Shown here piece after piece: positions 3,422 through 18,570 of a stretch of DNA of 42,904 bases (position 1 is its first letter; each line of letters starts with the position of its first letter). Source of the DNA: Nitrospirota bacterium (GTDB lineage: Bacteria; Nitrospirota; Thermodesulfovibrionia; UBA6902); the NCBI GenBank assembly GCA_016215115.1, contig JACRLN010000007.1, positions 1-42,904 on the forward strand. The letters run 5' to 3'. The translations under genes and the position numbers were made by a program. Under the pieces are notes generated by a model. The model was given only the letters and a program-made list of their open reading frames with translations. It searched no databases and was not told the origin of the DNA.

Positions 3422-3805
3422 ATGTCTGCAACAAAAGATCAGGTTTTTGAATTTATTGATAAGATGACAATTCTGGAAATGTCAGAATTTATAAAAGATT
3501 TTGAAACGCGCTATGGAGTGTCAGCAGCCGCACCGGTTGCAATGGCTGCCGTAGCAGGTCCGGCAGCGGCAGCGGGTCCTGCAGCAGAAGAGAAAACGAG
3601 TTTTGATGTGGTACTGTCTGCTGCCGGCGATAAAAAGATTCAGGTCATTAAAGTAGTGAGAGAGCTTACAAGTCTCGGCCTTAAAGAGGCTAAAGAACTT
3701 GTTGACAGCGCGCCCAAACCGGTAAAAACCGGGATCTCCAAGGAAGAGGCAGACGCCATCAAGGCAAAGCTCGAGGAACAGGGAGCAACTGTAGAATTAA
3801 AATAA
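3422..3805 (+). CDS. rplL: 50S ribosomal protein L7/L12
   Basis: The 127 residues fit the family. The N-terminal dimerisation domain ([21 protein letters not shown]) is joined by an Ala/Pro/Gly-rich hinge (residues about 38-55) to the C-terminal factor-binding domain, which has [22 protein letters not shown] and [18 protein letters not shown]7/L12 recruits translation GTPases. A TAGGAGG site precedes the ATG. Confidence 0.98.
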
Positions 3806-7896: not shown

Positions 7897-7966
7897 ATTG
7901 CAAATGGAAGTTAATTTTTAAAATTTAAAATTTTCAAATTTCAAATCTAAAATTTGAAATTTGAAA
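7897..7966. repeat. AT-rich inverted repeat between rpoB and rpoC
   Basis: Words TTAAAATTTAAAATTTTC, AAATTTCAAATC and AAAATTTGAAATTTG make a strong AT-only fold-back. It is analogous in layout to the Family A spacers but differs in words. Confidence 0.6.
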
Positions 7967-7978
7967 AGGGGGATTTAC

Positions 7979-10900
7979 GTGGAAGATATTTATTCAATAT
8001 TTGAAAAGCCGAAAAACCCAACGGAATTTGAGGCCATAAAAATAAAGCTGGCTTCTCCTGAAAAAATAAGGGCGTGGTCTTATGGCGAAGTTAAAAAACC
8101 CGAGACCATAAATTACCGTACATTTAAGCCTGAAAGAGACGGGCTTTTCTGTGCAAAGATCTTTGGGCCTGTAAAAGACTGGGAGTGCATCTGCGGCAAA
8201 TACAAGAGGATGAAACACAGAGGGGTGGTCTGCGACAAGTGCGGAGTTGAGGTCATACAGGCCAAGGCAAGGCGTGAAAGGCTGGGTCATATAGAACTTG
8301 CAACGCCCGTTGCGCATATATGGTTTTTAAAAGGAATACCATCAAGGATAGGCACTCTGCTTGACATGACAATGCGTCAGCTCGAAAAAGTGCTTTACTT
8401 CGAGAGTTATGTTGTGGTTGACTCCGGTGATACAAAGTTGAAGGATAAAGACCTGCTCAGCGATGAAGAATATAGAAAGAACGTGCAGGAGTCTGGCGAC
8501 AAGTTTAAAGCCGGAATCGGCGCAGAAGCAGTAAAAGAGCTTCTCAGAAACATAAACCTCGATGAACTTGCAAAAAGCCTGAGAACAAAGATGCATGCCA
8601 CAACTTCTCTCGGCATAAAGAGGAAACTTACAAAGCGTTTGAGGGTGGTTGAGGCCTTCAGAAAATCAGGCAACAAGCCCGAGTGGATGATAATGGATGT
8701 TATTCCAGTTCTTCCTCCGGACCTCCGTCCGCTGGTTCCTCTTGAAGGCGGAAGGTTCGCCACTTCAGACCTCAACGATCTTTACAGGAGGGTAATAAAC
8801 CGGAATAACAGACTGAAGAGATTGATGGAGCTGAATGCCCCGAGTGTTATTATCCGTAATGAAAAAAGAATGCTGCAAGAGGCGGTTGATGCACTCTTTG
8901 ACAATGGCAGGAGAAGCAGGGTTCTGAAAGCCACAACAAAGAGACCGCTTAAATCCCTCAGTGATATGATAAAAGGCAAGCAGGGACGTTTCAGACAGAA
9001 TCTGCTTGGTAAGAGAGTTGATTATTCAGGCCGTTCAGTTGTCGTGGTAGGGCCGGAACTTAAACTCCACCAATGCGGACTCCCCAAGACAATGGCTCTT
9101 GAATTGTTTAAACCGTTTATATTCAGCAAGCTTGAGGAAAAAGGCGCTGTTACAACAATTAAAGCAGCAAAAAAACTGGTTGAAAGAGGCGAAGATATTA
9201 TATGGGATTGTCTTGATGAAGTGATCAGTGAACATCCCGTACTGCTTAACAGGGCGCCGACCCTTCACCGTCTGGGTATGCAGGCCTTTGATCCTGTGCT
9301 TGTAGAAGGGAAAGCCATAAAACTTCATCCTCTTGTATGCACTGCGTTCAATGCAGACTTTGACGGGGACCAGATGGCAGTACATGTGCCGCTTTCGATA
9401 GAAGCACAGATTGAGGCAAGGGTCCTGATGATGTCTGTCAATAATATCCTTAGTCCCGCAAACGGCAAACCGATTGCAACTCCTACGCAGGATATGGTTC
9501 TCGGTATCTATTACCTTACAAAAGAGAGGACAGGGGCCAGGGGCGAAGGGAAAAAATTTACCAGCCCGGAAGAAGTAAGGATTGTATATGATGCAGGTAT
9601 CGCGAGAAGCGGAAGAAGGAAGGGGAAGAATATCGCTGAAGATGACGCTGAAATAATTGATATACATGCAAAGATCCAGGTAAGAATGAACGGTTCCTTT
9701 GTTGATACAACAGCCGGGCGTATTATTCTCAACGAGATATTGCCACAGGGAGTTTCATTCTCAATGATCAACAAGGAAATGACAAAGAAGGAAGTAGGGA
9801 GACTTGTAGAATTTTGTTATAAGAGACTCGGGAAAAAGGCAACAGTTGTCTTTCTTGATAATGTTGAAAAGCTCGGATTCCAGTATGCAACCATATCAGG
9901 AAGCTCAATCTGTATTGATGACATGCACATTCCAAGCAGAAAGACTGAATTAATAAAACATGCTGAACATGAAGTGCTTGATGTCCAGAAACAGTATGCC
10001 GACGGTCTTATCACAAACGGCGAGCGCTACAATAAAGTTATAGACGTATGGGCCGAGGTCACGGAAAAGATTGCCGATGAAATGATGACGGAATTGGGAG
10101 TTGAAAGCGGTGAAGATATCAGTAAGTTATCGGAAAAAGATCTCAAGGAAAGGCGGTCCTTCAACAGTATTTTCATGATGGCTGATTCAGGGGCCAGAGG
10201 CTCTGCTGCCCAGTTAAGACAGCTTGCAGGGATGAGAGGTCTGATGGCAAAACCTTCAGGAGAAATTATCGAGACACCGATTACGGCGAATTTCAGAGAG
10301 GGCCTGACGCCTCTCCAATACTTTATCTCAACACATGGCGCAAGGAAAGGTCTTGCAGATACGGCCTTGAAGACAGCCAATTCAGGATACCTTACCAGAA
10401 GGCTTGTTGATGTTGCGCAGGACGTGATAATAATGGAGGACGACTGCGGCACACATAACGGCATATATCTGACAAGCCTGATTGAAGGTGGTGAAATCAT
10501 TGAGGCGCTTGAGGAGAGGCTATACGGCCGGACCGCGGCTGAAGATATAAAAGATGCGGACAAGGTGAAGATCGCATCTTACAATAAGGAAATAGATGAC
10601 GACCTGGCAAAGAAAATTACTGAAGCAGGAATTGACCGTGTAATGATAAGATCGGTCCTTACCTGTGAAGCCAGTTACGGTGTATGCAAAAAGTGCTATG
10701 GACGGGACCTCGGCAGGGGTGAAGTAGTTGAGATGGGCGAAGCAGTTGGAATCATTGCCGCACAGTCCATCGGAGAGCCGGGAACACAGCTTACGATGAG
10801 AACCTTCCATATCGGCGGAACTGCTACAAGGCTGGTGGAGCAGACTGTTCTTGATGCAAAAAACGGCGGCACGGTAAAATTTATTGATCTTGCAACTGTT

Positions 10901-12118
10901 AAAAACAGGGAGGGCTCTCTGGTTGTTATGAACCGGAATGGCAGCATATCAATTATTGACTCAAAAGGAAGAGAGAGAGAGAAATATTCTGTTGTATACG
11001 GCGCCAGACTGAAAGTTAAAAACGGTCAAAAAGTAGATGGCGGACAACGGCTCGTTGAATGGGATCCTTATTCAATTCCGATTATTACAGAGGTTGGCGG
11101 AAAAATCGCGCTCGGAGACATAGTTGAAGGCGTGTCAGTCAAGGAAGAGGTCGACGAGGTTACAGGACTTCACCATAAAGTGATTATAGAATATCCTGCC
11201 CACATGAGACCAAGGATCTCACTAAAAGATGAACAGGGGAAAGCGACTTTAAAGATCCCCGGCACCAACAACATAGCCCGCTATCTGCTGCCTTCAGGCG
11301 CCCATGTCCTTGTTGACAAGGGAACTATTGTTCACCCCGGTGACGTCATAGCAAAGATACCGAGGGAGACGACGAAGACAAAGGACATAACAGGAGGTCT
11401 GCCGAGGGTCGCGGAACTGTTCGAGGCCAGAAAGCCCAAGGAACAGGCGATTGTGAGCGAGATAGACGGAGTTGTTGAGTTTAAAGGCTTCCATAAAGGC
11501 ATGAGAATTGTTGTCGTTAAAGGCGGAGTGGATTCAAGAGAGTATTTTATTCCGAAAGGCAAACACCTGAGCGTACATGAAGGCGACTGGGTAAAGGCCG
11601 GAGAGGCGTTAATGGACGGCTCAATCAATCCGCACAACATACTTGAGATTCTCGGACCCAATGAACTCCAGAGATATCTTGTTGATGAAGTGCAAAAGGT
11701 CTACAGGCTTCAGGGTGTTTCCATCAATGACAAGCACATAGAAGTTGTTGTAAGGCAGATGATGAAAAAGATAAGGATTGAAGATTCAGGCAATACGGAC
11801 TTCCTTGTAGGCGAGCAGGTAGATAAAGCTGTATTTGAAGCAGAAAACAAGAGAGTATTGAAAGATAAAGGCAAAGCTGCGCAGGGGAAACCTCTTCTCC
11901 TGGGTATTACCAAGGCGTCTCTGTCTACAGACAGCTTTATCTCTGCTGCATCCTTCCAGGAAACCACAAGGGTCCTTACAGAAGCTGCCATCAATGGAAT
12001 GCTGGACGACCTGAGAGGGTTGAAAGAGAATATTATTATGGGAAGACTTATTCCTGCCGGTACAGGTACGGAGATGTACAAAGAGACGTTTGTAGAAGCT
12101 ACTGCGGAGGAAGTTTAG
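7979..12118 (+). CDS. rpoC: DNA-directed RNA polymerase subunit beta'
   Basis: From GTG 7979 the protein has 1379 residues. I chose this start because AAAAGGGGG (7964-7972) is well spaced before it and the protein then begins [11 protein letters not shown]; an upstream in-frame TTG at 7961 overlaps the ribosome site. The N-terminal zinc cluster (CICGKY, CDKCG) is near residue 70. The catalytic NADFDGD loop is near 458. The second zinc site ([11 protein letters not shown]) is near 897, and [13 protein letters not shown] follows. RpoC carries the Mg ions of the polymerase active centre. A family-A-like spacer follows. Confidence 0.99.
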
Positions 12119-12250: not shown

Positions 12251-12268
12251 CTATGATCTGTGGCTAAT

Positions 12269-12742
12269 ATGAAATTCATCGCCGATTCAATGCTGGGACG
12301 TCTTGCGCGATGGCTGAGACTGCTCGGCTGCGACACCATTTATTATCCCCATATTGAAGACAGGCGGCTGATAAGGATTGCAAGTGAAGAAGACAGGGTC
12401 CTTATTACCAGAGACACACGGCTTGTAAAAATGAGGGGATTAAAACATTTTCTGTTATTGCATGAGAATGATCCATTTGAACAACTGAAAAAAGTAATAA
12501 TAACTTTTAATCTGAATCCATTTGAACTGCATAAGGGCGGGTTTGAAACCCGCCCCTACAGCAGATGTTCCCTCTGCAATACCCCGCTCAAAAGTATCCC
12601 CAAAGAACAGGCAGAGCCGCATGTACCGGAATATGTCTATCAGACTTCAGAGATGTTTAAGCAATGCCCGACGTGCGGGAAGTTTTACTGGAAAGGAACG
12701 CATCCTGAGAAGCTCAGGAAGAAGTTGATGGAGATTTTGTAA
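12269..12742 (+). CDS. Mut7-C RNase-domain protein with zinc ribbon
   Basis: From ATG 12269 the protein has 157 residues; GTG 12260 is an alternative start. No clear ribosome site is seen. The N-terminal PIN-like Mut7-C core reads KFIADSMLGRLARWLRLLG, with a later ITRDTRL. The C-terminal ribbon has CSLC and CPTCG followed by KFYWKGTH. This family is predicted to be a ribonuclease. A palindromic GGGCGGGTTT repeat is embedded in the coding sequence at 12534-12559 and encodes HKGGFETRPYS just before the first Cys pair, where relatives normally have a short linker. The frame stays open through it. Confidence 0.85.
   Translation: MKFIADSMLGRLARWLRLLGCDTIYYPHIEDRRLIRIASEEDRVLITRDTRLVKMRGLKHFLLLHENDPFEQLKKVIITFNLNPFELHKGGFETRPYSRCSLCNTPLKSIPKEQAEPHVPEYVYQTSEMFKQCPTCGKFYWKGTHPEKLRKKLMEIL
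12534..12559. repeat. Family D palindrome inside the Mut7-C gene
   Basis: AGGGCGGGTTT followed by GAAACCCGCCC is an almost perfect inverted repeat ending in CTAC. The same sequence, complete at 29 bases, stands in the sat-aprB spacer at 26184-26212. Here it is translated in frame. Confidence 0.85.
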
Positions 12743-12768
12743 TTTTCCCTTCTGAATGTTTGACTTAT

Positions 12769-12799
12769 CACATAATTATGTGGTACACATAATTATGTG
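12769..12799. promoter_or_regulatory. Tandem palindromic operators of the RHH/PIN module
   Basis: The perfect palindrome CACATAATTATGTG occurs twice, at 12769-12782 and 12786-12799, separated by GTA. Centre-to-centre spacing is 17 bases. It lies 21 bases before the antitoxin start and follows a possible -35 box TTGACT at 12760-12765. Ribbon-helix-helix antitoxins usually bind such tandem palindromes as dimers to repress their own operon, so autoregulation is the natural reading. Confidence 0.85.
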
Positions 12800-12819
12800 A
12801 ATATCGGAAGGAGGTGTGT

Positions 12820-13065
12820 ATGGAGAGACAAAATGTAACGTTATCGCTCCCGAGGTCCCTGATAAGAAAAGCTAAGGCGTTGGCTGTGAAGAGGGATAGT
12901 TCGTTAAGCGAGTTGATGCGCAAGGCACTTGAAGAAAAGGTAAAAGATGAGTCGGGGTATCAGAGTGCCAGGAACAAGCAGATTGCGCTTATGGAAAAGG
13001 GCCTCAACCTTGGATCAAGAGGGAAAATTACTACGTTAAGGGACGAGCTCCATGAAAGACGGTAA
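12820..13065 (+). CDS. Ribbon-helix-helix (CopG/VapB-like) antitoxin
   Basis: The 81-residue protein starts at ATG 12820 behind a perfect AAGGAGG. The N-terminal part (RQNVTLSLPRSLIRKAKALAVKRDSSLSELMRKALEE) has the beta strand and two helices of an RHH DNA-binding domain. The C-terminal part, rich in charged residues (KGLNLGSRGKITTLRDELHERR), would wrap the toxin. It overlaps the PIN gene by 14 bases, so translation is coupled. Two tandem palindromes upstream are its likely operator. Confidence 0.88.
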   Translation: MERQNVTLSLPRSLIRKAKALAVKRDSSLSELMRKALEEKVKDESGYQSARNKQIALMEKGLNLGSRGKITTLRDELHERR

Positions 13066-13489
13066 GGTATTTGTAGATACTAATATTATTATTTATGCTT
13101 ATGATGTTTCTGCAGGAGAGAAACACGATAGGTCTCTGGAAATAATGAAAGACCTTTGGAATACTGGCAGGGGTGTCATAAGCACTCAGGTTCTGCAGGA
13201 ATTCTTTGTTAATGTAACAAGGAAAATAGCCAGGCCTGTTAATGCAGCTACAGCGAAAGAGATAGTAAAGGATTTCCTGAAGTGGAAAACGGTGGTTATT
13301 GACGGAGAGCTGATATTGGATGCTATTGATATTCACAGCGCGCATAAATATTCATTCTGGGATTCTATGATTATCGCATCGGCTATTGCAGGCAATGTTG
13401 AGATGCTTCTTTCCGAGGATCTTTCGGACAGACATGTTATAAAAGGAATTACGGTTAAGAATCCGTTTAACGGCAAAAAGTTAAAGTGA
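13052..13489 (+). CDS. PIN-domain toxin (VapC-like RNase)
   Basis: The 145 residues have PIN-domain acidic positions: VFVDTNIIIYAYD (Asp9), the Glu of QVLQEFF, the Asp of FWDSMIIASA, and the Asp of LSEDLSD near the end. VapC toxins cleave tRNA or rRNA when not held by the antitoxin. The gene overlaps its antitoxin. The final KNPF is common in this subfamily. The target RNA cannot be read from the sequence. Confidence 0.9.
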   Translation: MKDGKVFVDTNIIIYAYDVSAGEKHDRSLEIMKDLWNTGRGVISTQVLQEFFVNVTRKIARPVNAATAKEIVKDFLKWKTVVIDGELILDAIDIHSAHKYSFWDSMIIASAIAGNVEMLLSEDLSDRHVIKGITVKNPFNGKKLK

Positions 13490-13496
13490 GTTTGAG

Positions 13497-13580
13497 AATT
13501 CAACTTTCCGCACTTCTGCTTTCCCCTCTATCAAGAGGGGATAAAGGGGTGTGTTTTCATCTTCTGCACTTCCGCGCAAT
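13497..13580. repeat. Mixed repeat patch: family B words around a family G palindrome
   Basis: Family B words (TTCAACTTTCCGCACTTCTG and CTTCTGCACTTCCGCGC) flank the family G palindrome CCCCTCTATCAAGAGGGG and AAAGGGGTGTG at 13523-13553. Family G recurs at 14311-14372 (disrupted) and 33664-33686 (reverse orientation). This patch separates the convergent PIN and nucleotidyltransferase genes. Confidence 0.65.
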
Positions 13581-13587
13581 TAATGTT

Positions 13588-14124
13588 TCACCAAACAGAT
13601 TCAAGTTTTGACAGAAGATAATATTTTTGAGCCAGAGTTTTGAGCTTATTCTTATCCGCTTTTTTTAAAAGCGCCGTAATATCGAGAATATCCTGATTGC
13701 TTAACGGCAGGAGTTTTAGCAGAATTAAATATTCCGGAGTAACGACCTTGACGTTTATTCCAAAAACATCTGCTATAACTGCATCTTTGATTGCAGCATC
13801 GGCTAATCGAAATCCCCTGGTACTGATAACATCAACTTCTATTTGCCCTGAGACAAAAGAAAAATTTTCCTTAATGTTGGTCCGTTGGGTTCCTTTATGT
13901 ATAGCCACCCTCTTATGCAGTCTTGTTTCGACAATTGAAATCAGGTCAGCCCACTTTATTCTTTCCGAAACTGTGACTGCCAAATCTATATCCTGTGTGG
14001 TACGGGGCCTTATCCATGCAGAGAGCGCAAGCCCGCCAATCAACGCATAATCTTCAATAACACCTTCGCTTTTAATCTCATCAAAAAAAATAATGGTTTT
14101 TTTGAATGACTCAATGATGGACAT
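13588..14124 (-). CDS. AbiEii-like nucleotidyltransferase
   Basis: This 178-residue minus-strand protein has the nucleotidyltransferase signature IGGLALSAW followed by RTTQDIDLAV, with the two Asp of DID. A third acidic position is likely in GQIEVDVIS. Related proteins are toxins of type IV (AbiE) or tRNA-modifying toxin systems, or orphan nucleotidyltransferases. Its ATG overlaps the TAA of a 38-residue ORF (TAATG), so the two are translationally coupled. The assignment as a toxin is inferred from the family and from the surrounding toxin-antitoxin genes. Confidence 0.75.
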   Translation of the reverse strand: MSIIESFKKTIIFFDEIKSEGVIEDYALIGGLALSAWIRPRTTQDIDLAVTVSERIKWADLISIVETRLHKRVAIHKGTQRTNIKENFSFVSGQIEVDVISTRGFRLADAAIKDAVIADVFGINVKVVTPEYLILLKLLPLSNQDILDITALLKKADKNKLKTLAQKYYLLSKLESVW

Positions 14125-14240
14125 TATTTTTTCTTTAGAGCTTTTTTGACAGATTGTTTAAGGAGCAGGGAGAGTTCAAGGAGTTCGAGGGAGATTTCAA
14201 TATTCTTGCCATTGGGTTTAGGGGGATATTTTTTCTTCAT
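14124..14240 (-). CDS. Small 38-residue ORF coupled to the nucleotidyltransferase
   Basis: The ORF reads MKKKYPPKPNGKNIEISLE and continues with LLELSLLLKQSVKKALKKK. It is strongly basic, with a leucine-rich amphipathic helix. A GGAGAAG site lies just upstream, and the stop TAA shares bases with the ATG of the next gene. That coupling and the codon pattern argue that it is real. I do not recognise a family. It may be the antitoxin or a chaperone-like partner of the nucleotidyltransferase, but nothing in the sequence proves this. Confidence 0.55.
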   Translation of the reverse strand: MKKKYPPKPNGKNIEISLELLELSLLLKQSVKKALKKK

Positions 14241-14310
14241 CTCTTCTCCGTTGGTTTATATTGAGACATTATACAACGAAGACCGCGTGAAGATAAACTG
14301 CAAAGGATCT

Positions 14311-14372
14311 CCCCTCTATCAAGAGGCCTATGGCTCGTGAGCCACGGCTCATAGAGGGACAAAGGGGTGTGT
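14311..14372. repeat. Family G repeat disrupted by a second palindrome
   Basis: CCCCTCTATCAAGAG at the left and GGGACAAAGGGGTGTG at the right match the compact copy at 13523. Between them is a foreign block containing the palindrome GGCTCGTGAGCC, so a palindrome appears to have inserted into a palindrome. Confidence 0.6.
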
Positions 14373-14380
14373 TCTTTCAA

Positions 14381-14413
14381 AAGCTGATAGCTGACCGCTG
14401 AATGCTAATAGCT
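14381..14413. repeat. Family C repeat at the 3' end of the methyltransferase fragment
   Basis: The words AGCTGATAGCTGACCGC and AATGCTAATAGCTGC match those behind tuf and hppA. On the minus strand this repeat supplies the last residues and stop codon of the truncated methyltransferase copy. Confidence 0.6.
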
Positions 14414-14640
14414 GCTTTTCTGAAACACAAACACATGCTCATGCATTATCAAAAGGAAATTGTAGAGCTTCGACTTCTTGACCCAGAACCCCGTCGCCTT
14501 GCAGTTGTGCTGGACTTTAATAATGTCCTCCCGCAAAACAAATCCCGCCTTTAAAAACCGATCCATGACTTTGAATGAAAGGGGAATATAGAACTTCTTC
14601 CTCCTCGTATCGCCGATGAGGATGGCGAAGGCGTTAATCA
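14405..14640 (-). pseudogene. 3' fragment of a DNA methyltransferase gene (duplicate of 15526-16269)
   Basis: The minus-strand translation AILIGDTRRKKFYIPLSFKV, then RFLKAGFVLREDIIKVQHNC, is nearly identical to the last ~70 residues of the intact methyltransferase about 1.1 kb further on. The DNA match (roughly 90% by eye) runs from about 14412 to 14627 and stops abruptly at GATGAGGATGGCG. The AdoMet and catalytic motifs are absent, so it cannot be active. It stands on the far side of the DUF3800 gene from the intact copy. An 86-residue reading frame is open but starts outside the homologous part. Confidence 0.88.
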
Positions 14641-14704
14641 CATTGAAATTATCTCGTGAAACCATTAGTATGTTTGCAGTATAAAGTCAGTAAATGAGGG
14701 GAAT

Positions 14705-15340
14705 ATGGCTTATATCTTTATGGACGAATCAGGGGATTTGGGTTTTGATTTCAGAAAAAAGAGAACAACCTCATATTTTTTAATTGCTTTTCTCTTCAGT
14801 AAAAATAAAAGGACAATTGAAAAATGCGTCAAACAGGTACATTCTTCTTTAAGAAAAAAGTACAGGAAGGTTAATGTTCTCCATGCATTCAAAGAAGAAC
14901 CTGCAACAAAAAAGCGAATGCTCTCCCTGCTTGCACAAAAGGATTGTAAGATAATGACAGTACTTTTAAACAAAAAGAAAGTTTACACAAAACTGAAAAG
15001 CGAAAAACCTGTGCTTTATAATTATGTTGTCAACATTCTTCTTGATCGTATATTTTCAAAAAGGCTGCTTCAGTCTGATGATTTCATCGAAATTATAGCC
15101 TCTCGTAAGGAAACAAATAAATTTCTGAATCAGAATTTTAAATCTTATCTGAAAGCACAACTGGCAGAGAATCACAATATGAAGGTATCTATTTCAATCA
15201 GGACACCGGCAGAAGAAAAGGCATTGCAGGCAGCAGATTTTGTTAGCTGGGCTATCTTCAGGAAATACGAATACAATGACGATACGTATTACAATTTCAT
15301 CCGGAAGAATATCATCGAAGAAAATCCGTTATTTCCCTGA
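14705..15340 (+). CDS. DUF3800 domain protein
   Basis: The 211-residue protein begins AYIFMDESGDLGFD, the hallmark DES-G motif of DUF3800, a predicted RNase H-like fold. The later acidic and AADFVSW segment (QAADFVSWAIFRKYE, residues ~178-192) is the typical second motif. DUF3800 genes are common in phages, mobile elements and defence islands, and are known to neighbour conserved RNA structures. Here a strong hairpin follows 8 bases after the stop. A GAGGGG site precedes the ATG. The biological role of the family is unsettled. Confidence 0.88.
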   Translation: MAYIFMDESGDLGFDFRKKRTTSYFLIAFLFSKNKRTIEKCVKQVHSSLRKKYRKVNVLHAFKEEPATKKRMLSLLAQKDCKIMTVLLNKKKVYTKLKSEKPVLYNYVVNILLDRIFSKRLLQSDDFIEIIASRKETNKFLNQNFKSYLKAQLAENHNMKVSISIRTPAEEKALQAADFVSWAIFRKYEYNDDTYYNFIRKNIIEENPLFP

Positions 15341-15342
15341 AA

Positions 15343-15411
15343 ACAACAAAGCCCCGTTCGCTATTTGCGAGGAGCCCTGCGGTACCCCACGAACGAGGAC
15401 TTACTTGTTTA
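15343..15411 (+). ncRNA. Structured RNA candidate downstream of DUF3800
   Basis: Directly after the DUF3800 stop, AAACAA (15341-15346) can pair with TTGTTT (15405-15410). Inside it, AAGCCCCGTTCG pairs with CGAACGAGGACTT as 3, 2 and 6 base pairs separated by two C-A mismatches. The apical part, CTATTTGCGAGG to GGTACCCCA, contains further short complementary runs. There is no U tract, so it is not a simple terminator. RNA motifs named DUF3800-I and onward are known next to such genes; whether this belongs to one of those classes needs a covariance search. Confidence 0.6.
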
Positions 15412-15467
15412 TATAATCATAAGAGAAATTGAACCTGGATGTCAAGAATTAAGCCGTATTTAAAAGA

Positions 15468-15525
15468 CGTCCAACTCAACTTTCGCTCCCTGACTTCCGT
15501 ACTTTCTCGCTTCCGCGCTTCCCCG
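15468..15525. repeat. Family B pyrimidine repeat (CTTCCGCG words)
   Basis: The tract is made of ACTTTCGCTCC, ACTTCCGTACTTTC, TCGCTTCCGCGC and TTCCCC words. It abuts the stop codon of the intact methyltransferase. The same words occur in reverse complement at 18001-18075, 18870-18915 and 32440-32475, and in the same sense inside aspS at 22119-22156. Confidence 0.65.
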
Positions 15526-16269
15526 CTATTTTTGTAACACAAAAATGTGCTCATGCATTATCAAAAGGAAATTGTAGAGCTTCGATTTCTTCACCCAAAA
15601 ACCCGTTGCCCTGCAGTTGTGCTGGACTTTAATAATGTCCTCCCGTAAAACAAATCCCGCCTTTAAAAACCTTTCCATAACCTTGAATGCAAGGGGAATA
15701 TAGAACTTCTTCCTCCTCGTATCGCCGATGAGGATGGCGCAGAATTTATCGGGTTTTAAAACACGGAAGCATTCCTTTGCAACAAGTTCTATTTCATCGC
15801 AGAATGAATCAATGGAATGAATATTCGATAGGTCTCCGTTAATCTTTCCTTCAGAATATTTGATAATGTCTGTATAGGGTGGATGAGTTAATATTAAATC
15901 AATTGATTCATCTCCAATGGCTTCAAGAGTCCTTGCATCGCCAACATAGCATTCCTGCGGTTGCGAATAAAGATAATCAAAATTTAATCTCTCTTTTGTA
16001 ATTTTTAGCGCATCCGGATTTATGTCAATCCCTATCCCTCTTCTTCCTGTCAACTTACATTCAATCAATGTCGTCCCTCCGCCAACCATTGGATCGAGGA
16101 GGATATCTCCTTCATTTGAATAGCGAAGGATTAAGTTGCGGACAACCTGCGGCGACCAGTTCCCTCTGTAGTCGGATCTGTGGGTTGCCCAGTTGCCTCT
16201 TTTCGGAAAAGACCAAACTGTGGTGCATTCAAGGTCTAAGCTTTCAGGTTGAAGCCTTTTTACACCCAC
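15526..16269 (-). CDS. Site-specific DNA methyltransferase (N4-C/N6-A type)
   Basis: The 247-residue minus-strand protein starts at GTG 16269 behind AAGAAGG. Motif X-like YRGNWSPQVVRNLI is near residue 35, AdoMet motif I LLDPMVGGGTT near 57-67, and GIDINPDA follows. The catalytic motif IV is LTHPPYTDI near 131, with His in place of the usual Asp/Asn/Ser before PPY. The order X-I-IV is seen. It lies head to head with a DpnI-like endonuclease gene. Its last 70 residues are duplicated at 14405-14640. The recognition site cannot be read from the sequence; if the neighbour cuts methyl-GATC, this enzyme must modify something else. Confidence 0.88.
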   Translation of the reverse strand: MGVKRLQPESLDLECTTVWSFPKRGNWATHRSDYRGNWSPQVVRNLILRYSNEGDILLDPMVGGGTTLIECKLTGRRGIGIDINPDALKITKERLNFDYLYSQPQECYVGDARTLEAIGDESIDLILTHPPYTDIIKYSEGKINGDLSNIHSIDSFCDEIELVAKECFRVLKPDKFCAILIGDTRRKKFYIPLAFKVMERFLKAGFVLREDIIKVQHNCRATGFWVKKSKLYNFLLIMHEHIFVLQK

Positions 16270-16294
16270 CGCCGCCTTCTTAAAATTCTATTCA

Positions 16295-16393
16295 GGCTCT
16301 CAAGGCGATCCTCGATCGTATGAATTGATGTAAGACATTATTTGCAATAAATGAAGACCGCCTGAGAGCCCCTCTTTTGATCGATCATTGATC
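16295..16393. promoter_or_regulatory. Divergent control region with large inverted repeat and GATC cluster
   Basis: GGCTCTCAAGGCGATC (16295-16310) and GACCGCCTGAGAGCC (16356-16370) form an inverted repeat around the methyltransferase 5' side. Five GATC sites lie within 87 bases, at 16307, 16314, 16379, 16383 and 16390. The region lies between the divergent methyltransferase and DpnI-like genes and probably contains both promoters. Confidence 0.6.
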
Positions 16394-16476
16394 GAATCGG
16401 CAGGAAATGTCAACAGACTATAAGTAACATTGAAAAAAAGTGTAAAATAGCTTCAAATTATCTTTTGGGGGATTGC

Positions 16477-17244
16477 ATGGAGCTTTGTTTTGATGTTGAT
16501 AAAGCAAGGAATTATAAAAGCCATTCTCAGATAGCGAGAGTTTTAACAGAAGACTGGGCAGTAAAGAATTTGTTCTGCATATCATGTAATCAATCACGAC
16601 TGCAAGCTGCCCGTGATAATACAAAAGTGATTGATTTCATATGCGATAAGTGTTCTGAAACTTACCAGCTAAAAAGTCAGAGTAAAACTTTAGGAGACAA
16701 AATCGTTGACGCCGCATATGAACCCATGATTGATTCGATCAAAAGAAATCGAACACCAAACTTATTCCTGCTGCATTACAATTCGACCAACTATTGCGCT
16801 GAAAACCTCTTGATTGTCCCCCGGTATTTTCTAACACTTTCCTGTATAGAAGCTCGCAAACCTCTCTCGCAAAATGCCCGCCGTGCCGGATGGATCGGCT
16901 GCAACATTGTTTTAAAGGAAATCCCTCTCGACGGGAAGATAACGATTATTAAAGAGAGAGAAATTATAAGTCCTGAATCAGTCAGGGCGAATTATGACAG
17001 GTTCAGGTTTTTATCAGAAAAGAAATTTGATTCAAGAGGCTGGACAGCCGATGTTTTAAAAGTAGTTAGAGACCTCGGCAAGGCAGATTTTACTTTGGAG
17101 GAGCTATATGCCTACGACGAACAACTTCAAAAACTCCATCCCGATAACAAACACATCCGCCCCAAAATCCGTCAGCAGTTGCAAATCCTCCGCGACAAGG
17201 GGATTGTAGAATTTAAGGGAAGCGGAACATACAGGATTGTTTAA
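16477..17244 (+). CDS. DpnI-like restriction endonuclease
   Basis: From ATG 16477, behind TGGGGGA, the protein has 255 residues, close to DpnI itself. It begins MELCFDVDKARNYKSHSQ and has ARVLTEDW, the four zinc Cys (34, 37, 56, 59), and the PD-(D/E)XK-like site Asp53 with Q64-L-K66. The C-terminal winged helix carries RRAGWIGCNI, DSRGWTADVL and KIRQQLQILRDKGIVEFKG. DpnI cuts only methylated GATC. The catalytic Glu expected at 64 (from memory of DpnI) is Gln here, so activity is uncertain. An in-frame TTG at 16465 is a less likely start. The 3' end of this gene is duplicated twice downstream. Confidence 0.93.
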   Translation: MELCFDVDKARNYKSHSQIARVLTEDWAVKNLFCISCNQSRLQAARDNTKVIDFICDKCSETYQLKSQSKTLGDKIVDAAYEPMIDSIKRNRTPNLFLLHYNSTNYCAENLLIVPRYFLTLSCIEARKPLSQNARRAGWIGCNIVLKEIPLDGKITIIKEREIISPESVRANYDRFRFLSEKKFDSRGWTADVLKVVRDLGKADFTLEELYAYDEQLQKLHPDNKHIRPKIRQQLQILRDKGIVEFKGSGTYRIV

Positions 17245-17271
17245 TGGATAGGGGCGAGTGACCGTTCTATC

Positions 17272-17598
17272 CTACTTCAAAATCTTCTTAATCTGTTTCC
17301 TAAGCTCAGGAATTTCAACAGTTATAATATCCCAGACAATATCATAATCAATGCCGAAGTAATCATGGATTAATTTGTCTCTGGTTCCTGCCATTGCTCT
17401 CCAGTCAACAGCGCCATGATTTTTTCTGAAATCATCCGGAAGTTTCTTAACTGCTTCTCCGATTATTTCAACGCTGCGGACAAATGCCCTTTTGAGCGTT
17501 TCATCTTTAAGAAAATTTTTCTTGCTGAGTCCTTCTGATTTGCCGATTATATAGTCCGCTTCATCAAGGATATGTCTGAGGTATTCCTTATAGGACAT
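17272..17598 (-). CDS. hepT: HepT-like HEPN toxin (DUF86)
   Basis: The 108-residue, helix-rich protein contains the HEPN RNase motif RDKLIHDYF (Rx4HxY) near residue 73. Upstream segments such as RAFVRSVEIIGEAVKKLP are typical of the family. HepT cleaves RNA and is neutralised by the nucleotidyltransferase MntA, which adds AMP to the Tyr of this motif in studied systems. It overlaps the mntA-like gene by 11 bases on the same strand, with mntA first. Confidence 0.92.
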   Translation of the reverse strand: MSYKEYLRHILDEADYIIGKSEGLSKKNFLKDETLKRAFVRSVEIIGEAVKKLPDDFRKNHGAVDWRAMAGTRDKLIHDYFGIDYDIVWDIITVEIPELRKQIKKILK

Positions 17599-17893
17599 AT
17601 TCGATTTCTTTGAGGATATGAGGTTTCAGATACGGGCTCAGGCTTTCAGGTGTTATAAGCTCAACTTTACGATGAAGCAGGTCTTCAAGAAGATAGGCAA
17701 GGTGAATGAAGTTTTTAAAATTTTTCTTTCCGCGCATAAACTCCACAATCAGGTCAACATCACTTTCTTTTTTCTGTTTCCCTTTAACGAAGGAACCGAA
17801 AAGACCAATCCGTTTTACCCCGAGATTCTCTATCTCCTGTCTGTGAGAGGAAAGAATACTTGAAACATCTTTTCTTGTCTGTACCGTTTTCAT
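17588..17893 (-). CDS. mntA: MntA-like nucleotidyltransferase antitoxin
   Basis: The 101 residues start at ATG 17893, with an AGAGG ribosome site; the longer open frame upstream overlaps a broken DpnI fragment and is rejected. The motif GSFVKGKQKKESDVD fits GSx10DxD, the active site of MntA antitoxins that AMPylate HepT. The C-terminus reads ELITPESLSPYLKPHILKE. With hepT it forms a type VII toxin-antitoxin pair inserted between the intact DpnI-like gene and its duplicated 3' end. Confidence 0.92.
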   Translation of the reverse strand: MKTVQTRKDVSSILSSHRQEIENLGVKRIGLFGSFVKGKQKKESDVDLIVEFMRGKKNFKNFIHLAYLLEDLLHRKVELITPESLSPYLKPHILKEIEYVL

Positions 17894-17950
17894 AATTGCT
17901 AACCTCTGAACAATTATACCAAAACCCTGACAAAAGATACATTTCTCCGG

Positions 17951-18134
17951 CTTCAAAGACTCCACCCGAAAATAGAAACATCCACCCCAAAATCCGCCAG
18001 CAACAAAACAGTGCAAAAGCACAAAAGAGCAAAAGAGCAGAAGTGCGGAAGCGGGAAAGTGAGAAAGTGAAGAAAAGCAAAAGTGACAAAGGGGTTGTGG
18101 AGTTTAGGGGGAAAGGGAGATATGGGGTTGTAAA
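17951..18134 (+). pseudogene. Decayed 3' fragment of the DpnI-like gene with repeat insertion
   Basis: CTTCAAAGACTCCACCC and CCCCAAAATCCGCCAGCA mirror the intact gene's CTTCAAAAACTCCATCCC and CCCCAAAATCCGTCAGCA (17126-17176). After KIRQQ comes about 80 bases of family B repeat. The homology then resumes with DKGVVEFRGKGRYGVV, equivalent to DKGIVEFKGSGTYRIV. Small deletions in the first part break the frame. It lies directly upstream of the minus-strand mntA-like gene. The fragment lacks the catalytic domain. Confidence 0.82.
18001..18080. repeat. Family B repeat tract inside the DpnI 3' fragment
   Basis: The tract is a chain of 7-10 base words such as GTGCAAAAGC, ACAAAAGAGC, AGAAGTGCGG and AAGCGGGAAAG. 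It interrupts the winged-helix homology right after the codons for KIRQQ. Confidence 0.7.
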
Positions 18135-18147
18135 GTTAAGGTATTTA

Positions 18148-18570
18148 TTATGCTTTCAAAATCTTCAACAGTTTTGCAGTTGTAAAAACCTCAATGCCTG
18201 CATGTTGAAAATCTCTGTCATTGCTCCAGACAGGAACTTTCAGTTTCATTGCAAGTGCAAGCAATTCTATATCGTCTTCATCCCTGCCTGAAAATTTCTT
18301 GGACGCCTTTTGAATTAAATCTTCGTAAGAATGCCGGGGATAAATTTTAAGGGGAAGGAGTTTGAGTTGGGACTCAAGAATTTCTTCGCTGATTTTATAC
18401 CGCTCCGCGATAACATCAAGGTATTCTCTGACTTCATCAATATTAAACTGTGTTGTTACGATATCAATATCTTCTTCCAGAAATACGCGGAGCGCCGCCT
18501 TGCCTGCAACTGCGGAAAGGATAACGTTAGCGTCTGCGGCGAGTTTTTTTAAAGGTGTTAAAATCTGCAA
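18148..18570 (-). CDS. PIN-domain toxin paired with Phd
   Basis: The 140-residue protein has PIN-domain acidic residues: Asp13 in LAADANVILSAV, the Glu of NIDEVREYL, the Asp residues of GRDEDDIELLALA, and the Asp of WSNDRDF. The family degrades RNA. Its start overlaps the end of the Phd-like antitoxin gene by 44 bases. The antitoxin is upstream on the same strand, as expected for such operons. Confidence 0.85.
   Translation of the reverse strand: MQILTPLKKLAADANVILSAVAGKAALRVFLEEDIDIVTTQFNIDEVREYLDVIAERYKISEEILESQLKLLPLKIYPRHSYEDLIQKASKKFSGRDEDDIELLALAMKLKVPVWSNDRDFQHAGIEVFTTAKLLKILKA

Follow-up and report, generated by a model that had tools for sequence, protein, structure and literature searches.

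A small structured RNA convergent with a DUF3800 gene in a Nitrospirota defence island, a possible silencer of a predicted RNase H-fold nuclease found in restriction-modification loci

Organization of the DUF3800 locus

The window analyzed here is the stretch of 42,904 nucleotides from contig JACRLN010000007.1 of a Nitrospirota bacterium (NCBI GenBank assembly GCA_016215115.1). An island located between rpoC (7961-12118) and housekeeping genes further on contains a gene for a DUF3800 protein that is followed, on the opposite strand, by a conserved small RNA. The unit formed by these two components and its immediate surroundings comprise the following features:

14417..14627, minus strand: 3'-end relic of a second methyltransferase copy, located across the DUF3800 unit from the intact methyltransferase, to which it is 92% identical
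14705..15340, plus strand: DUF3800 gene, 211 aa (PF12686, E 5.1e-14), predicted RNase HII-like nuclease
15338..15410, minus strand: conserved small RNA of approximately 73 nt, transcribed towards the DUF3800 gene, matching covariance model R1 with 82.6 bits
15526..16269, minus strand: N6/N4 DNA methyltransferase, type II (PF01555, E 2.2e-27; PADLOC MTase_II, E 1.3e-84)
16465..17244, plus strand: DpnI-like methyl-directed restriction enzyme (PF06044, E 4.4e-66; PADLOC mREase_II)

The island (12260-18570) is packed with small toxin-antitoxin or defence genes and includes, in addition to the methyltransferase and the DpnI-like enzyme, a Mut7-C RNase, an RHH/PIN pair, an AbiEii-like and another NTase, and PIN_2. 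The 211 bp methyltransferase relic (14417-14627) corresponds to 15526-15739 of the intact copy and lies at the opposite flank of the DUF3800 unit; at two other loci (L062 and L063; loci are numbered with an L throughout), the methyltransferase is accompanied by neither a DUF3800 unit nor a relic, and the homology stops at the methyltransferase stop codon. A dispersed repeat of approximately 31 bases (..cttccgtactttctcgcttccgcgcttccc..), found in the window at about 15490-15533, is present in 2 other places in the same genome and in several related genomes.

Strand, structure and promoter of the small RNA

The RNA and its promoter can be dissected into the following elements, all on the minus strand and given in the direction of transcription:

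15440..15445, minus strand: -35 box of the RNA promoter, TTGACA
15416..15421, minus strand: -10 box, TATGAT, after an 18-nt spacer; start expected near 15409
15404..15410, minus strand: 5' arm of the closing stem P1, pairing with 15350-15344; the outermost pair is unformed in the window
15399..15404, minus strand: GUAANU element in the interval between P1 and P2, near-invariant by column counts
15389..15398, minus strand: 5' arm of stem P2, pairing with 15361-15352; 7 of its 10 pairs show both-sided changes among relatives
15369..15388, minus strand: apical hairpin P3 with a 2x2 internal loop and a 4-nt loop; a G-C pair switches to C-G in relatives
15362..15368, minus strand: unpaired linker GCAAATA, replaced in some relatives by an extra hairpin, P4
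15352..15361, minus strand: 3' arm of P2
15344..15350, minus strand: 3' arm of P1
15339..15343, minus strand: short, terminator-like T-rich tract past P1 (TTTTC, 15343-15339), abutting the DUF3800 stop codon

A sequence-only reading of this region had described a hairpin directly behind the DUF3800 stop codon, taken in the direction of the gene. The hairpin is real, conserved and subject to strong selection on its structure, but it had been placed on the wrong strand: the 85-base stretch folds with -29.8 kcal/mol on the minus strand (z -3.5, with 0 shuffles as good) and with -20.4 kcal/mol on the plus strand (z -2.3). The C-A oppositions of the plus strand, including the two mismatches of that reading, are G-U wobbles on the minus strand (pairs 7-61, 15-57, 22-50 and 24-41 of the window RNA), and among the minus-strand pairs 93 G-U cells face 3 A-C cells, or 29 versus 1 when the pairs that are mostly G-U are left out. 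Because a G-U pair on one strand appears as a C-A opposition on the other, it is the minus-strand RNA that forms the pairs. The U tract that had been reported missing is present on this strand, in a short form (TTTTC); it is long in two other loci (L005 and L007).

A sigma-70 promoter, TTGACA-18-TATGAT (15445-15416), lies upstream of the RNA on the minus strand. Across 14 loci, a promoter at fixed distance from the RNA attains a summed best score of 140 versus 101.5 for shuffles (sd 3.4, max 110); in most of the loci that were added later and found without using the promoter, the -10 box ends 5 bases before P1, and one of the loci (L076) has a perfect TTGACA-17-TATAAT promoter. The position of the promoter and the T-rich tract after P1 together delineate an RNA of approximately 73-80 nt that is convergent with the gene, that is, judging from these signals, a separate transcript rather than a tail of the DUF3800 mRNA. 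It is hardly conceivable that the hairpin acts as a plus-strand element in the 3' UTR of that mRNA: the plus strand folds too, but more weakly, the strand asymmetry of 93 to 3 runs against it, and both the promoter and the T-tract occur on the minus strand only.

Conservation and covariation

Covariance model R1, built from 14 of the loci with the element behind a DUF3800 gene, recovered 25 copies of the RNA, 24 of them distinct, from several phyla in a search of the collected loci. In the alignment of the 24 distinct rows (A4), standard pairs account for 95.6% of the paired cells versus 79.4% in column shuffles, falling to 59% or less in slid controls, and both-sided changes are found in 16 of the 23 pairs (97 such cells versus 30.7 in shuffles). 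This alignment was fitted to R1; a MAFFT alignment that was not fitted to the model (A3) yields the same outcome, with 94.7% standard pairs and both-sided changes in 14 pairs (54 cells versus 18.7 in shuffles). Thus, comparison of homologous loci, which the sequence-only reading had suggested as a check, revealed strong covariation along with conservation, the opposite of what it had named as grounds for abandoning the link between the hairpin and the gene. The unpaired positions of the RNA are conserved or class-specific as well, and column counts show no hypervariable stretch.

The RNA is tightly linked to the gene. Among the close DUF3800 relatives that were examined, all intact genes have an RNA homologue immediately behind them, and no intact gene lacking the RNA was seen. 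Given the sequence comparisons, we consider it virtually certain that a conserved RNA belonging with the DUF3800 gene exists on the minus strand. The reverse situation, an intact RNA with the DUF3800 gene deleted, truncated or interrupted, was observed at five loci (L071, L079, L086, L009 and L010). Survival of the RNA without the gene would be expected of an antidote; it is, however, weak evidence for such a role because the gene is about 9 times longer and decays faster. A further solo copy (L077, 1501-1571), decayed and weakly matching (35 bits), has no DUF3800 gene that we could find nearby.

The convergent arrangement also accommodates a more modest explanation, that is, that the RNA regulates the gene it faces, as an antisense or terminator device that sets the DUF3800 level, or is processed by the protein as its substrate. 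In favour of such a device, the 3' end of the RNA coincides with the stop codon of DUF3800, and transcription from its promoter is directed towards the gene; but covariation maintains the structure and the unpaired nucleotides far beyond the needs of a terminator, and the RNA is retained where the gene has been lost, so we regard this possibility as rather improbable.

Relationship with the DUF3800 RNAs of Rfam

DUF3800-associated RNAs are known motifs, with a function that is not established in the literature we searched. In the loose sense of a conserved structured RNA that is consistently located beside DUF3800 genes, the window RNA belongs to this group, and the connection drawn in the sequence-only reading was right in kind, homologues being found beside the relatives; by score, however, the RNA falls outside all of the Rfam DUF3800 families. 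A search with the Rfam DUF3800 models, another check suggested there, returned no match to the window RNA above the gathering score, and there were no relevant Rfam matches even at an E-value of 10 for the window RNA or at 5 for its relatives. The hits obtained at relaxed thresholds were to models of eukaryotic microRNAs, snoRNAs and the like, and were taken as chance.

Sister DUF3800 genes in the same phylum carry RNAs of the Rfam families DUF3800-V, -VII or -IX, and all Rfam-class RNAs that abut DUF3800 genes in the phylum are located on the opposite strand, just behind the gene. Model R1 weakly matches two DUF3800-V RNAs at the expected position (L021, E 0.002; L046, E 0.006). DUF3800-V (RF02964) and the window RNA share the position on the minus strand, where they adjoin a DUF3800 gene and converge with it, and the architecture of a long closing stem, a UAA-containing 5' internal element and a GC-rich apical hairpin; the window RNA differs in being shorter and in having another apical part and a linker or P4. 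The DUF3800-VII and -IX RNAs (RF02967, RF02968) resemble it in their convergent position behind DUF3800 genes, but differ in sequence and architecture and do not score on the window RNA. On these comparisons and within the scope of Rfam 15, the window RNA represents a class of DUF3800 RNAs not described before, weakly related to DUF3800-V as a distant sister. One contig (L025) carries, in addition to a DUF3800-V unit, a second DUF3800 RNA of the DUF3800-IX family (3516-3579), at a distance of about 2 kb.

Predicted fold of the DUF3800 protein

The DUF3800 protein belongs to PF12686 (53.6 bits versus the curated cut-off of 21), and its close relatives, with 48-61% identity (alignment A2, 10 rows), come from Patescibacteria, Elusimicrobia and other genomes of the phylum of the window. 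The protein has no name in NCBIfam and no model in PADLOC, and a sequence search found no solved structure (best E 0.26). The AlphaFold2 model (pLDDT 83.7, pTM 0.86) has RNase HII/H2 as its best PDB matches (Foldseek E 1.1e-5); structure comparison with 1eke gives Z 11.1 over 166 residues, with an rmsd of 3.3, compared to Z of about 7-8 for other groups, and the RNase H domains of Argonaute/PIWI and Cas proteins are also near this fold, at lower Z. The protein is thus predicted to share the RNase HII/H2 fold.

The active site is less clear-cut. D7-E8 (14723-14728) and D178 (15236-15238) are invariant in alignment A2, and the N-terminal DESG motif with D7-E8 occupies the position of the DEAG catalytic pair of RNase HII. 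When the protein is compared with the DEDD pattern of four catalytic carboxylates, the strand due to bear the third Asp ends in S133, and D178 is placed in a helix by the model and the alignment. Given that the third and fourth carboxylates of RNase HII are absent from their usual places, nuclease activity of the DUF3800 protein is not assured from the model. A catalytic rearrangement within an RNase H fold has been noted for DUF3800 (PMC10910872), in agreement with our model, and DUF3800 with this fold is an accessory component of Cas12a2 and VI-F systems (PMC10910872, PMC12669027).

Association with restriction-modification systems

DUF3800-RNA units of the class found in the window, and units of related classes, are located in diverse restriction and defence neighbourhoods. 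Units lie between mod and res at L015 (type III) and L082, and between hsdM and hsdS at L008 and L065, with the RNA alone at L081. Others adjoin a type IIG methylase and an SNF2-like helicase (L064), hsdM (L006) or Cas3 (L004), and units with DUF3800-V or -IX RNAs adjoin HsdM (L021, L022), MmeI (L023), HsdS (L037) or a ResIII protein (L041). Several of the units in restriction operons start 6 to 11 bases past the upstream stop codon. A methyltransferase adjoins 6 of the 13 RNA loci versus 1.2% expected (p ~4e-9), or 5 of 12 when the window locus is left out (p 1.6e-7), the expectation being an approximate one that comes from 173 methyltransferase domains in 29.7 Mb of 11 genomes under the assumption of one gene per kb. 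About half of the loci are away from defence genes, next to EF-G/DnaJ, tRNAs, FTHFS and others, so that the carriage in restriction operons, which recalls PrrC, is not universal. We found no description of the enrichment of DUF3800-RNA units beside restriction systems in the open literature that was searched.

In a tree of 18 DUF3800 proteins, the defence-neighbour label needs 5 changes, 2 of which are forced by well-supported branches. These multiple changes suggest that the adjacency to defence genes reflects more than one gain or loss rather than a single inherited accident, although the exact numbers are uncertain. The unit between the type III mod and res genes (L015/L016; contig C17, 40485-41191) is a second copy in the genome of the window. 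It was probably acquired separately, being closer to a locus from another genome (L017) than to the window copy.

The variety of sites invites an explanation in terms of a selfish or homing element, with the DUF3800 nuclease and the RNA copying themselves into new sites, for which restriction operons are merely permissive. Such an element would account for locations that include tRNA clusters, a viral contig (L046) and Acinetobacter phages, for the presence of the sister proteins of L016 and L017 in different restriction systems, and for the methyltransferase 3' relic that flanks the window unit and is absent in relatives. However, inspection of the upstream sequences by eye revealed neither common termini nor a target-site duplication, and starts so close to the upstream stop codon resemble operon membership; we therefore consider this scenario unlikely.

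The plasmid and phage collections contain only distant DUF3800 genes, and none of the 4 annotated neighbourhoods that were inspected (one of them consisting of 'hypothetical protein' entries throughout) includes a named restriction gene. The viral contigs yielded one distant DUF3800 locus. Phage genomes with DUF3800 genes include this viral contig (L046), where a DUF3800-V RNA neighbours a terminase gene, and an Acinetobacter phage (L091).

Possible functions of the DUF3800-RNA module

The sequence and structure comparisons outline a two-part module that consists of a putative RNase HII-like DUF3800 nuclease and a convergent, separately transcribed RNA. The sequence-only reading had considered a protein-RNA toxin-antitoxin or defence unit conceivable, a hypothesis that receives indirect support from the predicted RNase HII-like fold and from the repeated placement of units in restriction-modification operons. 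The restriction context leads us to favour, tentatively and at somewhat less than even confidence, the possibility that the protein is a toxin or abortive-infection nuclease that is held inactive by its cognate RNA and functions as a guard or addiction partner of restriction systems. Under this scenario, the RNA, expressed from its own near-consensus promoter, would bind the DUF3800 protein via its fixed three-helix shape together with the conserved GUAANU and apical nucleotides and would block its nuclease activity. A phage that takes over the cell, or loss of the adjacent restriction-modification system, for instance, would deplete or displace the RNA; the nuclease thus released would attack nucleic acid and growth would stop. 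Being carried in mod/res, hsdM/hsdS and type II loci, the module would serve these systems as a guard or addiction partner, much like PrrC with its type I restriction enzyme, but with an RNA in the role of inhibitor.

The main rival is an opposite role of the RNA, as an activating cofactor or scaffold of a DUF3800-RNA ribonucleoprotein that attacks invading nucleic acid or aids the restriction or CRISPR machinery. The constant pairing of protein and RNA and the defence context fit this alternative, and it gains from the published association with Cas12a2 and VI-F (PMC10910872, PMC12669027) and from the proximity, albeit at lower Z, of the fold to the RNase H domains of Argonaute/PIWI and Cas proteins. 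Weighing against it, the RNA has no variable stretch that would be able to guide, and the occurrence of intact RNA without the gene at several loci is less expected of a mere cofactor; we view this alternative as possible but doubtful. An RNA-guided nuclease of the CRISPR or OMEGA kind was rejected as there is no variable guide segment in the RNA.

The proposal of an RNA-silenced nuclease can be extended to a speculative generalization, in which we place limited confidence, namely, that DUF3800 and its RNA constitute a new RNA-inhibited guard with an RNase H fold in restriction-modification operons, one that responds to the defeat or loss of restriction by killing or stalling the cell, and that the Rfam DUF3800 RNAs, together with the new one, are all antitoxin-like partners in this one kind of system. 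If confirmed, restriction systems would gain a guard that is controlled by an RNA. With a new RNA class, a settled strand, a mapped promoter, a predicted nuclease partner and the enrichment beside restriction systems, the function of such modules becomes directly testable.

Several known systems bear partial resemblance to the module. The TPR-DUF3800 accessory protein of Cas12a2 (PMC10910872, PMC12669027) likewise is an RNase H-fold DUF3800 protein encoded in a defence locus; the window unit, by contrast, contains neither a TPR part nor a CRISPR array and has its own small RNA. Type III toxin-antitoxin systems (ToxIN-like) also pair a structured RNA with a nuclease, a predicted one in our case; but the window RNA is a single-copy one, located downstream on the opposite strand under its own promoter, and the fold predicted for its partner is RNase HII-like. 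Membership in type III was rejected on layout, given that it requires a co-transcribed tandem-repeat RNA upstream of the toxin gene, as opposed to the single, convergent, downstream RNA observed here.

The anticodon nucleases PrrC and RloC are similar in that these nucleases are encoded inside or beside hsd genes (PMC2610378). PrrC is silenced by its type I restriction enzyme until restriction is challenged, and an rloC gene has been found beside an hsdR relic (PMC2610378). These proteins are unrelated to DUF3800, and the silencer there is the restriction enzyme, whereas an RNA is proposed here. Another kind of nuclease, YhcG/DUF1016, is encoded directly upstream of a DUF3800 gene with a DUF3800-VII RNA at one of the loci (L034).
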